The position numbers and the translations under genes were made by a program. Positions 16,260 through 27,374 of a stretch of 33,275 bases of DNA are shown piece after piece. The DNA lies in contig JAGQPT010000562.1 in the NCBI GenBank assembly GCA_020426575.1, positions 1-33,275 of the forward strand, written 5' to 3'. The notes under the pieces are model-generated. The model made no database searches and was not told the DNA's origin. It saw only the letters and a program-made list of their open reading frames with translations. How positions within the stretch are numbered: the stretch's first letter is position 1; every line of letters starts with the position of its first letter. The stretch comes from Planctomycetales bacterium (lineage in GTDB: Bacteria > Planctomycetota > Planctomycetia > Pirellulales > JAEUIK01).

Positions 16260-17617
<1,358 letters not shown>

Positions 17618-17621
<4 letters not shown>

Positions 17622-19084
17622 GCTTCCACCTCTACGGGCAAATAAACGGTGAAACAGGCGCCTTGGCCGGGCTGGCTGCGGGCGGCAATCCAACCGCCGT
17701 GCTCCTCGACAATACCTTGTGCGATCGACAATCCCAACCCGGTGCCTTCGCCCGACCCCTTCGTCGTAAAGAACGGCTCGAACAATTGGTCGAGGTTGGC
17801 CGGATCAATGCCGTCGCCCGTGTCCTGGACGTCGATGCAATAATAATCACGCTCGAGGCACTCGGCTGCGCCCGGCCGTCGCGCCTTTTTTTGGTAAACG
17901 TCAAGGTTGATCGTGCCGCCGCGCGGCATCGCCTGCACGGCGTTGACAACCAGGTTCGTCAACACCTGTTGTAGCCGGCCCTCGTCGACGTGGACCAGCA
18001 CCGGGCCGGCCTGTTCGGGCTCGACGATCTGCACGTTGTTCTTTGCGGCGATTCCACCGAGCATGTGGGCCGTCGCGCGGACCAACTGCACCAGGTCGGC
18101 TCGGCTCCGCGACGGCGCGCCTCGCCGGGCGAAGTCGAGCAACTGCCGGATAATCGGCGTCATGCGGTCGGCCTGCGACTTGATCGCTTCGGCACTCTCG
18201 ACCACCTCGGCCGCGCTCAACCTACCCGAAGCGATCAGGTTAGCCCGACCGGCAACGACGTTCAGCGGCGTTCCCAGCTCGTGCGCCATTCCCGAAGCCA
18301 GTCGCCCCACCGTCTGCAGGCGATCGGCGTGCCGGAGCTGCTCGAGGGCGGCCACCCGCGCGGCCGCTTCTTCCTCCACGGCCCGTTGCGAGGCGGACAG
18401 CTTTTCGCACATGCCGTTGAGGCTCGTCGCCAGGTCGGACAACTCGTCGTGCGTGTGCAGTTCGAGCGGCTCGTCCAGCTTGCCATCGGCGATCTGTTGG
18501 GTCTTGGTTACCAATTGTTGCAAAGGTCGGCCCACGAAGCGGACTCCCACGGCGAGCGACACCACGGCGGTCGAAAGCACCATTGAGGCGATCAACCAAA
18601 GCGCCCGGTGGATGGCGTCCCGCTTCTCCTCCTCGAGCGCCCGTAGTGGCCTCGATAGTTCGAGCATGACCGTTGGCCGCTGCGGGGCGGCGACTTCCCA
18701 GTACGCCGTCAGATACGCGTCGCCTTTTGTGCCGCGCGTCTGCACGAATTCGTGTCTCGCCAGCACGTGCGGATTGAACCATTGCTGGGGGGCCCAGGGC
18801 TTCTCGATGTGTTCGGGACCGCCCGACAGAGCGACCAGCCGAGTCACGATCGTGCCCTGCTCGGCATTCTGACTCCGCAGTAGCAAGAGTTCGTCGGCCG
18901 GGTCGTCCGTGAGCACACAGGCGATCACCTGGTCGTTCAATGCGGCGGCAAGTTTTTGCGTATCGGCCAACGCCTGTTCGCGGAACAGGCGCGATTCGTG
19001 TTCGATGCGGTAATAAACGTGGGCGATGGCCAACAGCGTCATCGCTACGAGGAAGACTCCCGCTACCTTGAATGCCAGTTTCAT
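17618..19084 (-). CDS. Membrane sensor histidine kinase (NtrB/ZraS-type)
   Basis: The 488-residue protein has TM1 (about 5-25), an extracytoplasmic sensor region (about 26-160) and TM2 (162-184). A HAMP linker (about 184-236), a short coiled coil and a HisKA domain follow, with the phospho-acceptor H268 in SGMAHELGTPLN. The HATPase has the N box (NLVVNAVQAM), the G1 box (DTGDGID), the F box (FEPFFTTK) and the G2 box (GEGTGLGLS), so it should be an active kinase. The ATG at 19082-19084 is preceded by AGGG with a seven-base spacer. It overlaps the response regulator gene by four bases and forms a two-component operon with it. The sensor region has no domain I recognise, so the signal is unknown. 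Confidence 0.95.
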
Positions 19085-19739
19085 AGTCTCACCCTATGTT
19101 TCGCCGCCGCAACTGACGATCGTCGCGTTTTGGCGCGCCGCTACATTTCGCTGCGCTCGCCGCCGCGTCGCCGAGCGGCGAAATCCCGCGTTTTTTGCCA
19201 TTTCGCTGCCACATTCTGCCCATTGGCGGGGCATCGTGCGGGCCCACCCACGGTTTGGCACGTTACGTGCATTATCTGCGCCACGACGCGAAGCGGCAAT
19301 CGACCTCGAACTCGACAGGGAGCTTTTCCCGTGCGAACGCATGCGACGATTGAAACGGTCGTTCCACCTGTCGCCTCCGCGACGGCGCTACATCAGACCG
19401 TCGAAGAACACGGCGGGCCGAAACGCCCTCGTCGTCGTAGTGCACCGCCCACAACCGCTGCCAGTACGACCCAAAACAACGAAACCGCTCCCAGCAACGA
19501 AACCACCTTTAACAATCAACCGGCCAAGAAGACTGCGAAGACTCCCGGCGCGCTGCGGCTAACCATCTCTGCCCCTCCGATCGTAAGCCGCACGCCCGGG
19601 AGTTCTTCGTCTTCTCAGGATACCACCAGCAGTGGCACTCTCAGGAAGCGACACCGCAGTCAAGGACTCGCGTTCTTGATCGCGGCAATTCGCCACCTCA
19701 ACCGTCGCCACGATGAACCCTAGAAACACACCGAGGGCC
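19085..19739. other. 655-base intergenic region, no secure gene
   Basis: This gap lies between the divergent sensor kinase and the orphan ATPase-like gene. It contains the -24/-12 promoter candidate at 19254-19273. Downstream of it on the plus strand is an open frame from GTG 19331 to the stop at 19721-19723, preceded by AGGGAG; its product would be S/T/N/P-rich with a basic tail and is doubtful. On the minus strand an ATG at 19564-19566 has a strong GGAGGGG site. It opens MVSRSAPGVFAVFLAG, meets a TGA at 19516-19518, and continues as a hydrophobic 40-residue stretch ending at 19393. Direct repeats of TCTCAGGA occur near 19614 and 19640. None of these is strong enough to call as a gene. Confidence 0.5.
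19254..19273 (+). promoter_or_regulatory. Sigma-54 (-24/-12) promoter candidate overlapping a palindrome
   Basis: TTTGGCACGTTACGTGCATT carries the invariant GG (19257-19258) and GC (19269-19270) exactly ten bases apart. It differs from the TGGCACG-N4-TTGC consensus at one base (GTGC for TTGC). The same bases contain the near-palindrome GCACGT-T-ACGTGC, so an operator is an alternative. It points toward the orphan ATPase-like gene, and a sigma-54 activator is encoded about 1.6 kb away. Both facts raise its plausibility. Confidence 0.5.
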
Positions 19740-20495
19740 ATGATGTCTCAGCCTACCATGACGACGGGCCAACCAATTTGTGAGGGAATGAACGTGACCA
19801 CGTCCGACCACAAATGCGCGCCGCATAACACCTCCGACGGCTCGGCCACGTCGCCAGCGGTCATCCTTGAGGAGATTGGCTGTCAGCTCGCCAACGCTGT
19901 GCGACACGTCGAACGTTGCCGCAATCTACACAGCCGGTTCCCCGACGAGGTTGACTTCGATCTCGAGTGCGCCACCGGCGCCATGCTCGACGCAGCGCTG
20001 GCCGCCCGCCGGCTCCGCGATGCCCTGGACGAGACACCCACCGGCGAACCCTTCACGCATATGCACACATTTGCCAAAGCGGCCACGCGCGCCGACGAGG
20101 CGGCGGAGAGTGACGGCGAACGTGCCGAATCTCAATTGTCCGATCCGGCGACACCGGAGCAGCGGTTGCTGCTGAAAATCGTCCGCGACGCCCTCATGAA
20201 CATATGCTTGCAAGGACACGGCAGTCATGGCCGCCTTGAAGTCGTTCGCGGTGACGGCATGGTCAAATTGACCGTCGAGGATGGACACGGAAACGACGAT
20301 GCCGAACTGCTCACGACGGGAGACGAGGGTCGCCGAGCCGCCGACATTCCGGGGCTCCGGGCGCGAACGGCCATCCTGGGCGGCGAACTCAGCGCGCAAC
20401 GGGGCGATGGCTGCGGGCTGCGGATCACGGCCCGAATTCCGCTGGCGCACGTGGTTGCGACACCGCCGACTGGGCAGGTTGCGGCGAAGGCGTAA
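19740..20495 (+). CDS. Orphan NarX/DesK-like histidine-kinase-ATPase-domain protein
   Basis: The protein has about 250 residues; the start is uncertain. ATG 19740 has GAGGG just upstream, ATG 19713 would lengthen it by nine residues, and ATG 19788 or GTG 19794 (GAGGGA upstream) would shorten it. A helical segment (SPAVILEEIGCQLANAVRHV, then ALAARRLRDALD) resembles a two-helix dimerisation domain but lacks the ELHD phospho-acceptor motif of HisKA_3. The C-terminal half matches a NarX/DesK-type HATPase: an N-box-like LLKIVRDALMN, a G1-like VEDGHGND, a G2 region GLRARTAILGGEL, and GDGCGLRITARIPL. In G1 the usual aspartate that contacts adenine appears as glutamate. It may be a non-kinase ATP-binding or ATP-sensing regulator; this is inferred. 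Confidence 0.7.
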   Translation: MMSQPTMTTGQPICEGMNVTTSDHKCAPHNTSDGSATSPAVILEEIGCQLANAVRHVERCRNLHSRFPDEVDFDLECATGAMLDAALAARRLRDALDETPTGEPFTHMHTFAKAATRADEAAESDGERAESQLSDPATPEQRLLLKIVRDALMNICLQGHGSHGRLEVVRGDGMVKLTVEDGHGNDDAELLTTGDEGRRAADIPGLRARTAILGGELSAQRGDGCGLRITARIPLAHVVATPPTGQVAAKA

Positions 20496-20603
20496 ACTGG
20501 CGATGCTGGCCGACGAGCCGATCGTGGTGGTCGGCTCATTCCACGACGATGTTGACGCCGATGACTCCATCAGGCGGTAACTTCCGACGTGGCGCGACCG
20601 GTG

Positions 20604-20831
20604 ATGACCATCATGCGAGTTTCGAGGGCGCTCATCGACCGCATGTTGGCCTGCAAGCTGCGACTCTGGCTCGCGCCGTTGCTGGTCACGGCAGCGGGAT
20701 GTCCGGCGATGTTCCGTGGGGCGGTCGTCAACGGCATTGCCGACGAAATGCACCGCCAGAGCGACGAGCAAACCTACCTCGAGCTGCGTCAAGAACTCGA
20801 AGAAGTCGAGCAGCGGCCGATCGTTCCCTGA
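20604..20831 (+). CDS. Small putative lipoprotein
   Basis: The 75-residue product starts at ATG 20604 (a GTG at 20589 is an alternative start). A basic N-region and hydrophobic segment (about 19-32, LRLWLAPLLVTAAG) lead to C33, a lipobox-like A-A-G-C. The remaining 42 residues are acidic and helical (TYLELRQELEEVEQRP). I do not recognise the family. It follows the ATPase-like gene on the same strand after about 100 bases and may share its transcript. The compact signal-plus-acidic-helix layout supports a real secreted peptide. Confidence 0.5.
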   Translation: MTIMRVSRALIDRMLACKLRLWLAPLLVTAAGCPAMFRGAVVNGIADEMHRQSDEQTYLELRQELEEVEQRPIVP

Positions 20832-20870
20832 GCGGCATTCGGGCCTCAGCGGCCGTTTACCCGACACACG

Positions 20871-21527
20871 CTACGTTTGCATTTCGTCGCGGGTCTTTTT
20901 CACAATCGCGACGTACTCGCGGGCCAGTTGCGCGATGCGGTCGAAGTCGCCGGACTTGACGGCCCCGGCCTCGACCAGCGCGCCGCCGATGCCCAGTGCA
21001 CAGGCCCCCGCTTTGAGGAAGTCCGCCGCCGTGTCGAGGTTCACGCCGCCCGTAGGCATCAATCGCACCTGAGGCAACGGTCCATGCAGCGCCTTGAGGT
21101 ACTGGGGGCCCGTGATGTCTGACGGAAACACTTTCACGATTTCGGCGCCCGCTTCCCATGCCGTCAGCACCTCGGTCGGCGTCAGTGCGCCGGGCATACA
21201 AACGTGACCGTAGCGGTGGCACATGCGGATCACGTCGAGATTCAGCGTCGGCGAGACGATGTAGCGGGCGCCGGCAGAGAATGCCAAACGAGCCGTTTCC
21301 GTGTCGAGCACCGTGCCCGCACCAAGCAAGATTCGGTCGCCGAGTCGGTCGGCAACGCGCTCGACAACGCGTTCGGCCCGTGGCACCGTGAACGTAATCT
21401 CGAGCACGTCAACGCCGCCGGCCAGCAATGCCTCGGCCACGTCAACCAACAGTTCGCCGCTCGGTGCCCGCACCACCGCCACGATGCCACGGTCGATAAT
21501 GCGTTCCAAATCGGTAGGGTTGCTCAT
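20871..21527 (-). CDS. eda: KDPG/KHG aldolase
   Basis: The 218-residue class I aldolase has the Schiff-base lysine K132 in AEIVKVFPSD and the catalytic glutamate E43 in LEITFTVP. The phosphate-binding PTGGVN and GIGGALV segments are also present. Length and order are typical of the family. It cleaves 2-keto-3-deoxy-6-phosphogluconate to pyruvate and glyceraldehyde 3-phosphate, or the related 4-hydroxy-2-oxoglutarate. No dehydratase or sugar kinase gene is adjacent to decide between the Entner-Doudoroff, uronate or hydroxyproline routes. It lies 88 bases downstream of the ACT-domain gene on the same strand and could be co-transcribed. Confidence 0.93.
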   Translation of the reverse strand: MSNPTDLERIIDRGIVAVVRAPSGELLVDVAEALLAGGVDVLEITFTVPRAERVVERVADRLGDRILLGAGTVLDTETARLAFSAGARYIVSPTLNLDVIRMCHRYGHVCMPGALTPTEVLTAWEAGAEIVKVFPSDITGPQYLKALHGPLPQVRLMPTGGVNLDTAADFLKAGACALGIGGALVEAGAVKSGDFDRIAQLAREYVAIVKKTRDEMQT

Positions 21528-25784: not shown

Positions 25785-27113
25785 CTACTGCGAATCGCAG
25801 ACGTTCGTGAAGAAGCTCGTTGCCACGTAGTCGAAATACTCCGGACGCATCTCGACCGGCAGGTCCTGGAACACACAGTAGTTGCGCACCTGCATCAAGA
25901 GGTCGCGGGGATGACAGCGTCGCAGCGGCCGGTTCTGCGATCGGTAGTGTTTTGCCAGCACGTAGTCGACCACTTCCCGCCGGTTCTCACACTTGAACTG
26001 CTCCGCGCTCATCTCGAAAAGCTTGTGGAACTCTTTTTCGTCCGGGTCCGTGACGTGAATCTTGTAGGGAATGCGCCGCAGAAACGCCTCGTCCACCAAG
26101 TCGTCCGGCTTCAGGTTCGTCGAGAAGAGGATCAGTTGTTCAAAGGGAACCTGAATCTTTTTGCCCGTCGGTAACGTGAGCAGATCGAAGCCGCTTTCCA
26201 ACGGCACGATCCAGCGATTGAGCAACTCGCGGGGCTCGATCCGCTGACGTCCAAAGTCATCGATCAGCAGGCTGCCGCAATTGCTCTTCATTTGTAGAGG
26301 CGCCTCGCTGACGTTACTGCGAGGATCGTGACGGATTTCGAGACCGTCCATCGTGAGTTCGCCACCGACGATCACCGTGGGGCGTTTTACCTTCACCCAG
26401 CGGCGGTCGTGGGCACTCGACGAAAGCAGTCGGTCAGCTTCGCCGACAACCTCCTGGTGATATGCCGGGTCGTAGAGCTTGATGATCTGGTTGTCTTCGA
26501 TGATCGTGTGGGGAATCCAGACGTGCTGGCCAAAACAGGCCGTGAGCCGACGCGCCACGGTCGACTTGCCGTTGCCCGGTGCGCCGTAGAGGAAACAACC
26601 GGCCGCGGAGTTGACCACCGGTCCCAGACTCCCGACCAGTTCCGGAGGTACGAGGATGTCGGCAAAGGCCGCTTCGAGTTCCGGCCGCTTGGGCGCCTCG
26701 GCGCGAATCGTCTGTGCCTCGACCGAGACGATGTACTCGTTCAGTTGCACGGGGGCGGGGCCGCAATACGAACAGGCGTCCATGAACGTCTGCGTCCGTT
26801 CCTGTCCTTGATCGGTCAACTTGTAAAAATAGTCGTTCAGAGGGGCCGCGCCGGTGTGGCAGAGAATCTGCCGCGACCGCAACGTGCGATATAGGTCTTC
26901 CAACACGCCAAACGGCAAGCAGATGTGGTCGGCAATGTCACGGCCGCTGGCCGTGCCTGCGATCGAGACGTATTTGCAGATCAGGCCTTCCACGACCGAC
27001 GGGCTGAGGTCCGTCTGCTCGATGCTTGTTGGCGCCGACGGATAAAACCGCTCCTCGGAAAGAAGCGACGCGAGCAGCCCACCTTCGGGTTGTGCTTCAA
27101 CGGCTATCGACAC
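25785..27113 (-). CDS. AAA+ ATPase with N-terminal helical/winged-helix-like domain
   Basis: I chose GTG 27111-27113, which has GAGG with a five-base spacer; an ATG at 27293 would add 60 residues without domain character. The 442-residue protein has an N-terminal domain (about 32-130) with three or four helices, a YKLTDQGQERT segment typical of a winged-helix end, and a CSYC pair (C114, C117). The ATPase core follows: Walker A GAPGNGKS (177-184), Walker B SLLIDDFG (281-288), sensor-1 N333 in LFSTNL and an arginine-finger candidate in FLRRIPYKI (346-347). The C-terminus is a helical lid (HPRDLLMQVRNYCVF). This looks like a planctomycete ATPase of unestablished role. It lies between the glycosyltransferase and TPR-lipoprotein genes. 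Confidence 0.85.
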   Translation of the reverse strand: MSIAVEAQPEGGLLASLLSEERFYPSAPTSIEQTDLSPSVVEGLICKYVSIAGTASGRDIADHICLPFGVLEDLYRTLRSRQILCHTGAAPLNDYFYKLTDQGQERTQTFMDACSYCGPAPVQLNEYIVSVEAQTIRAEAPKRPELEAAFADILVPPELVGSLGPVVNSAAGCFLYGAPGNGKSTVARRLTACFGQHVWIPHTIIEDNQIIKLYDPAYHQEVVGEADRLLSSSAHDRRWVKVKRPTVIVGGELTMDGLEIRHDPRSNVSEAPLQMKSNCGSLLIDDFGRQRIEPRELLNRWIVPLESGFDLLTLPTGKKIQVPFEQLILFSTNLKPDDLVDEAFLRRIPYKIHVTDPDEKEFHKLFEMSAEQFKCENRREVVDYVLAKHYRSQNRPLRRCHPRDLLMQVRNYCVFQDLPVEMRPEYFDYVATSFFTNVCDSQ

Positions 27114-27374
27114 GGCGACCTCACTGGCTGCGACTGGCGAACGGTTAGTCAGGCGCAAGTGACGATCACGCCGCGTGTGTGCCTGCCGGCCCCTCTCCAG
27201 AAAGCCTAGGTCAACCCTGGCGGTGCGGGTCACGAACCGACCCGCAGAGGTTTTAGCCACCGGCCCCGCGCCCGTTTGTAACGATCGTAGCATCCGTGCG
27301 ATCAGGCGAATCGACGTTCTCGTCCCGGACCGCCGATCTCACCACCGATCATTGCGTTTCGGCGGATGTTCCGT

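Follow-up and report, generated by a model that had tools for sequence, protein, structure and literature searches.

A compact candidate pseudo-histidine kinase with a degenerate HisKA_3-type core in a single planctomycete-like lineage

In this study, we examined an open reading frame of 251 codons in a stretch of planctomycete DNA (the window, 33,275 nucleotides). Judged from its sequence and its predicted structure, the encoded protein is a degenerate HisKA_3 (NarX/DesK-type) core, in which a whole DHp–CA unit can be traced although the DHp is worn. Kinase and phosphatase motifs have been lost together with part of the nucleotide-binding motifs, and the motif alignments support the view that this is a non-catalytic kinase-like protein. 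The explanation that we favour, with moderate confidence, is that the gene encodes a compact, soluble, lineage-specific pseudo-histidine kinase, which would act by binding, if it still acts. The features referred to below are as follows.

19740..20495, plus strand: coding sequence of the candidate pseudo-histidine kinase core (open reading frame, codon signal, models)
19854..20030, plus strand: degenerate DHp, predicted two-helix hairpin at about residues 39–63 and 68–97 (profiles, alignment, both models)
19857..19883, plus strand: former H-box AVILEEIGC, residues 40–48 (31-row alignment)
20172..20201, plus strand: N-box LKIVRDALMN, residues 145–154, with the Asn kept and the invariant Q-E changed to R-D (both alignments)
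20274..20294, plus strand: G1 box V-E-D-G-H-G-N, residues 179–185 (profile and 31-row alignments, model)
20340..20366, plus strand: G2 region ADIPGLRAR, residues 201–209 (both alignments)
20406..20420, plus strand: GxGT-like DGCGL, residues 223–227, with the Thr of 28 of 30 kinases replaced by Leu227
20589..20831, plus strand: downstream open reading frame of 80 residues with a lipobox-like LLVTAAGC (sequence)
17618..19084, minus strand: divergent HAMP–HisKA–HATPase_c sensor kinase, outside the system (Pfam)
16260..17693, minus strand: NtrC-type sigma-54 response regulator, outside the system (Pfam)

Reading frame and predicted fold

The frame is real and intact and has normal codon periodicity. 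GC content at the three codon positions is 0.70/0.51/0.73 and the in-frame codon score (frame 1) is 0.161, both inside the range of the window's other genes (0.099–0.334 for the score); we therefore regard 19740–20495 as genuine coding sequence. The start codon is putative, as further in-frame ATGs are found at 19713, 19743, 19758 and 19788, and residues 1–33 are without structure in the predicted model. Family searches gave little by themselves: the Pfam match to HATPase_c was weak (16.8 bits and E 0.0098, against a cut-off of 26.4) and HisKA_3 (PF07730) was not listed up to E 1, and the top NCBIfam profiles were those of the MadS, UhpB, MctS and NarX kinases, all of them far under their own cut-offs. 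A sequence search of the PDB gave no match up to E 10, and neither PADLOC nor PHROGs matched up to E 1, that is, no defence or phage family was recognized. Rfam found no RNA element in the window at gathering scores, and a promoter and terminator scan of 19000–21000 found no terminators and, on the minus strand, a single sigma-70-like site (shuffles mean 0.3), which is uninformative.

The protein was modelled as a DHp-like hairpin (residues 39–98) followed by an ATPase-like domain (residues 140–236). A profile built from 14 HisKA_3-type kinase cores of related genomes matches residues 49–238 with 41 bits for the best domain and 44 bits overall. When a DHp-only profile was run against residues 1–130, the score was 10.5 bits and the top of 200 composition shuffles reached 4.3 bits; this is a weak match (about 10 bits) with a modest margin, the shuffles control for composition only, and about seven of the profile's rows had originally been picked up through their alignment to this N-terminal half. 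An AlphaFold model made with 30 kinase rows has a mean pLDDT of 74.7, with a hairpin at about 86–94 (model residues 4–28 and 33–62, corresponding to protein residues 39–63 and 68–97); the linker that follows is poorly modelled, and an ATPase-like domain comes after it. Because this model borrows the kinase rows and would be circular if taken alone, a second fold was computed without an alignment; it is of low confidence (mean pLDDT 49.5) and contains the same hairpin and the same order of elements.

Structure comparison of the alignment-based model, the check that had been proposed in a first-pass annotation of this DNA, bore out the assignment to the NarX/DesK type, as Foldseek ranks 1–27 are all DesK structures (189–203 aligned columns). 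The TM-scores on the query are just 0.34–0.38 because the domain arrangement differs from that of DesK. The best VIA-align rows are those of the DesK CA domain (Z 10.1, 87 residues, 2.2 A), a comparison in which the hairpin is barely tested. With the no-alignment model, Foldseek gave eight matches at E up to 0.001, each of them to a histidine kinase or ChpT chain. The first-pass annotation had described only a NarX/DesK-type HATPase-like half; the weak HATPase_c match and the presence of NarX among the best profiles agree with this description, but the protein is predicted to hold a DHp hairpin as well. The two structural elements by which a pseudo-histidine kinase is recognized, a DHp hairpin and a Bergerat ATPase fold, are thus both present by prediction.

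Sequence motifs of the kinase core

The main motif alignment contains 31 rows, the protein and 30 kinases; the kinases were drawn from 80 loci, of which 37 were listed and 7 of these dropped. A second alignment, made with MAFFT, has 15 rows (the protein and 14 kinases), and the motif alignments omit residues 1–35. In an alignment with the full N-terminus, S32-D33-G34 had come to lie opposite the H-box; this placement was rejected as wrong and the alignment was redone minus residues 1–35. The kinase rows of this full-length alignment and of the 15-row one were chosen by a pattern in which the HD motif is obligatory, and the His is there by construction; the counts over 117 loci given below are independent of this pattern.

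Where the kinases of the 31-row alignment have the H-box I-H-D-G-x-x-Q, the protein has I-L-E-E-I-G-C. L43 occupies the position of the phospho-acceptor His, and E44 and C48 those of the D and Q of the DxxxQ phosphatase motif; H, D and Q are present at these columns in 30/30 kinase rows. An ELHD or EIHD motif is likewise absent from the protein, in agreement with the first-pass annotation. The change from H to L is the best alignment and not the sole one, since the local profile alignment begins at residue 49 and the 15-row MAFFT alignment places a gap in the His column; the absence of a His is hence surer than its exact substitute, L43. H56 lies outside the H-box, in a column in which several intact kinases also carry His (MHLE/LHLE). 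With regard to the second activity of such enzymes, the available text of PMC3510030 states that the phosphatase activity of NarX needs DxxxQ, a motif that appears highly conserved in HisKA_3.

The CA domain has not kept its N, G1 and G2 boxes intact (HATPase_c, 16.8 bits against the cut-off of 26.4). It had been proposed that Glu takes the place of the adenine-contacting Asp in G1. This is not the best reading: in the profile and 31-row alignments D181 falls on the invariant Asp (30/30 kinases), the modelled strand ends at D181, and one residue is deleted before the glycines, giving DGHG for DxGxG, with Asn in place of the aromatic residue after the second Gly. The 15-row MAFFT alignment again sets D181 on the invariant Asp (14/14), here with no gap and with the glycines shifted. 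In the G2 region, the 31-row alignment has Asp202 at the position of the first invariant Gly, whereas in the 15-row alignment an insertion placed after Gly197 lets this residue fill the Gly column; the G2 glycine is therefore probably lost, a clear result in the first alignment and an ambiguous one in the second. The threonine of GxGT also appears to have been lost. The glycine registers of G1 and G2 are less sure than the loss of the His. Asn154 and Asp181 remain, so residual nucleotide binding is possible.

Given these motif losses, the protein is probably unable to autophosphorylate or to dephosphorylate a regulator by the known route, and it would be neither an autokinase nor a regulator phosphatase of the usual kind. 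The loss of key residues for kinase functions, here read from the sequence, also belongs to the definition of a pseudo-histidine kinase in the available part of PMC12632262.

Relatives, neighbourhood and competing explanations

The His motif is present in 115 of the 117 homologous loci read, and the other two (L002 and L121) are truncated before the motif; by set, it was found in 31/32 loci (L002–L033), in 5/5 (L186–L190) and, within the matched frame, in 79/80 (L106–L185). The patterns behind the set of 80 contain no H-box but do contain two motifs that are absent or altered in this protein, and this set could consequently not hold a close match to it. A search of 97 relatives, the own genome included, yielded no orthologue; 36 matches at E up to 1e-3 came from 29 other genomes, and 29 of these matches were read (L002–L030) and 7 not fetched. 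The same was true of 396 genomes of the order (own included), where three others at E up to 1e-6 are kinases with an intact His, and of 392 genomes of the phylum (own included), where five others are kinases, again with the His intact. These three sets overlap, at most six candidates were scored per listed genome in the order and phylum searches, and the own family is represented by six other genomes. A scan of the genome contigs with the protein itself gave 222 pattern matches, none confirmed, and a profile search of 20 relatives listed many more kinase matches, most of them unread.

The protein is 16–24% identical to its relatives, which are themselves 38–67% identical to the first row of their own alignment, and in a tree it forms a very long branch that makes placement among the kinases impossible. 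The nearest intact counterparts by architecture are compact kinases of the order, 235 residues with HisKA_3 and HATPase_c (L078 and L089), which match Pfam HisKA_3 at 1.4e-13 and 2e-11. Both (L078:1495-2202 and L089:1498-2205, minus strand) are soluble, and no obvious response-regulator gene is seen by eye within 0.7–1.5 kb on either side. In the own genome, a HisKA_3 kinase that has its H-box and G1 is encoded on contig C198; the frame behind it looks by eye like a receiver protein. A further relative, in genome G323 (L031, 813–1469, plus strand), is half-degenerate: its H-box is intact, its G1 is an odd HDGGGEGDP without the aromatic residue, and its G2 has FDL for FGL.

The gene is preceded by a divergent intergenic region of 655 bp (19085–19739) without codon periodicity or an Rfam match, in which the long frames look like chance. 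For the downstream 80-residue frame, a search of 39 other genomes gave no convincing match (best E 0.074), and no family was matched in Pfam, NCBIfam, PADLOC or PHROGs. Nine KDPG aldolase loci of related genomes (5.8–18 kb, two of them on short contigs) show no conserved neighbourhood, the sole other match to a window gene being a 30%-identical DUF1501 protein (L069). Elsewhere in the window, 25785–27293 on the minus strand encodes a 502-residue protein with a P-loop, GAPGNGKST, and a normal coding signal, for which no Pfam match lies above the cut-off.

It had been suggested that the protein, adjacent to the kinase/NtrC pair and a small lipoprotein, serves that pair as an ATP-sensing or dominant-negative partner or as a scaffold. 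The pair is real and the downstream frame does have a lipobox-like sequence, physical proximity and an ATPase fold common to both proteins speak for a connection, and divergent genes can share control. However, the pair lies on the opposite strand, diverging, across the 655-bp gap, and the DHp of the neighbouring kinase is of the HisKA class whereas that of the 251-residue protein is HisKA_3-derived, with no sequence similarity between the two (BLASTP E 6.6, phmmer no match). The latter result also led us to reject an origin by duplication of the neighbouring kinase. An orthologous pair (NtrC 64–66% identical) was found in four other genomes, at loci of 8.0–11.0 kb each, and the gene is missing from 4/4 of them; the best scores of the kinase-core profile over these loci, 8.7 and 7.8 bits, both come from the HisKA kinases' own frames. 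These four genomes belong to other families of the order, and in six other genomes of the own family the pair kinase has no match at E up to 1e-70 (up to 39 candidates scored in each), so its distribution is patchy. With intact homologues and a neighbourhood that is not conserved, as the proposed survey of homologues and neighbours turned out, the circuit reading fails: the non-catalytic character that it assumed agrees with the sequence, a specific tie to the pair is unsupported, and we regard this partnership as improbable.

A different possibility is that the gene is a decaying compact HisKA_3 kinase gene, which lost its function recently enough that the frame remains open. This would fit the lack of orthologues in the searched genomes, the very long branch, the simultaneous loss of many invariant residues and the absence of a conserved neighbourhood. 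When neutral drift was simulated on four real kinase cores with substitutions only, however, just 6, 8, 14 and 14 of 500 sequences still lacked stops at 50% identity and, at 30%, 1, 2, 0 and 0 of 500, whereas the gene is open with normal codon periodicity at 16–24% identity to its relatives; the comparison is rough, as part of this divergence lies on the relatives' own branches. Local decay, which had been named as a possible refutation, is thus not proven, the frame being open at a divergence at which neutral drift nearly always leaves stops. This points to a frame that was long kept under coding constraint, with no particular function implied, and the constraint on the gene may have been relaxed yet lasting. 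We consider decay unlikely, though it is the obvious alternative. The protein could also be a GHKL protein that still binds ATP and serves a different chemistry, such as an ATP sensor or an anti-sigma-factor-like Ser/Thr kinase. The N-box Asn154 and the G1 Asp181 are retained, and structures of RsbW/SpoIIAB appear in the list of 50 VIA-align rows (Z 8.4–8.6), but they come behind DesK (10.1), no HATPase_c_2 (RsbW-type) match was listed by Pfam up to E 1, and the nearest profiles and structures are those of NarX/DesK-type kinases. The G1 deletion and the probable loss of the G2 glycine also speak against normal nucleotide binding, and we give this explanation a low probability.

Proposed action and comparison with known systems

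According to the pseudo-histidine kinase reading that we prefer, the ancestor would have been a HisKA_3 (NarX/DesK-type) kinase, possibly of the small stand-alone DHp–CA type found in the order. The predicted dimerizing helical hairpin and ATPase-like fold would have been retained, while the phospho-acceptor His, both phosphatase residues of DxxxQ and some of the nucleotide site (G1, G2 and GxGT) would have disappeared. By analogy with known pseudokinases, we infer that the protein acts in the two-component network through protein binding, and it might do so by pairing in a mixed dimer with an intact HisKA_3 kinase, such as that on contig C198, or alternatively by docking a NarL-type regulator. 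Either mode would change the output of that pathway, in line with the action of DivL, RocA and the ChrS pseudokinase through binding. A more specific version is possible but doubtful, namely that a soluble, bare and stand-alone HisKA_3-class pseudo-histidine kinase has had its frame kept in one planctomycete-like lineage as a binding regulator, either as a dominant inhibitor of NarX/DesK-type dimers or as a core-only reader of phosphorylated NarL-type regulators; such a bare core would lack the kinase and phosphatase residues and probably those for ATP binding as well. The searched genome sets offer no orthologue by which a conserved function could be judged. For now this is one gene in one genome, and only a candidate regulator, which limits its wider interest.

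Among known systems, the NarX/DesK-type HisKA_3 kinases (PF07730 and PF02518) are closest: the hairpin-then-ATPase order, the best-matching structures (DesK) and the profile match over residues 49–238 are shared. The protein differs from them in its altered His, DxxxQ, N-box Q-E, G1 spacing, G2 Gly and GxGT Thr, and it has neither a HisKA_3 Pfam match nor a sensor domain in its 251 residues. ChpT/Spo0B-like phosphotransferases also combine a DHp hairpin with a non-catalytic ATPase-like domain, and they require their His for phosphotransfer. The ChpT structure 4fmt is among the Foldseek matches (ranks 28–29 for the alignment-based model and 2–3 for the no-alignment model); however, the present protein lacks the H-box His.

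The cases that share a disabled core are more instructive as to a possible mode of action. DivL of Caulobacter, whose structure 4q20 is among the Foldseek matches, also has a core without the phospho-acceptor His; in the available text of PMC4211667 it is described as having Tyr550 at this site and no kinase or phosphatase activity, as binding an ATP analogue weakly and as acting by binding a regulator. DivL has PAS sensor domains and DivK~P as its partner in that account, whereas here a bare HisKA_3-derived core is predicted. RocA of group A Streptococcus, according to the part of PMC7028121 available, is a pseudokinase whose CA domain is degenerate and which acts through a second kinase, CovS; unlike the present protein it spans the membrane and keeps a dispensable His. 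A ChrS pseudokinase variant, a disabled sensor kinase as well, is reported in the accessible portion of PMC9491836 to form mixed dimers with the intact kinase HrrS, although that variant arose from a laboratory frameshift in the CA domain, whereas the present protein occurs naturally and has both domains, if in degenerate form. While pseudo-histidine kinases are already a named kind, HisKA_3 domains without the His are rare, amounting to 56/16,025 sampled (0.3%) in the available text of PMC12632262. The protein described here would be a new, compact and single-lineage member of this kind, and such a sensor-less case would offer a small and tractable test of kinase-core signalling without chemistry.
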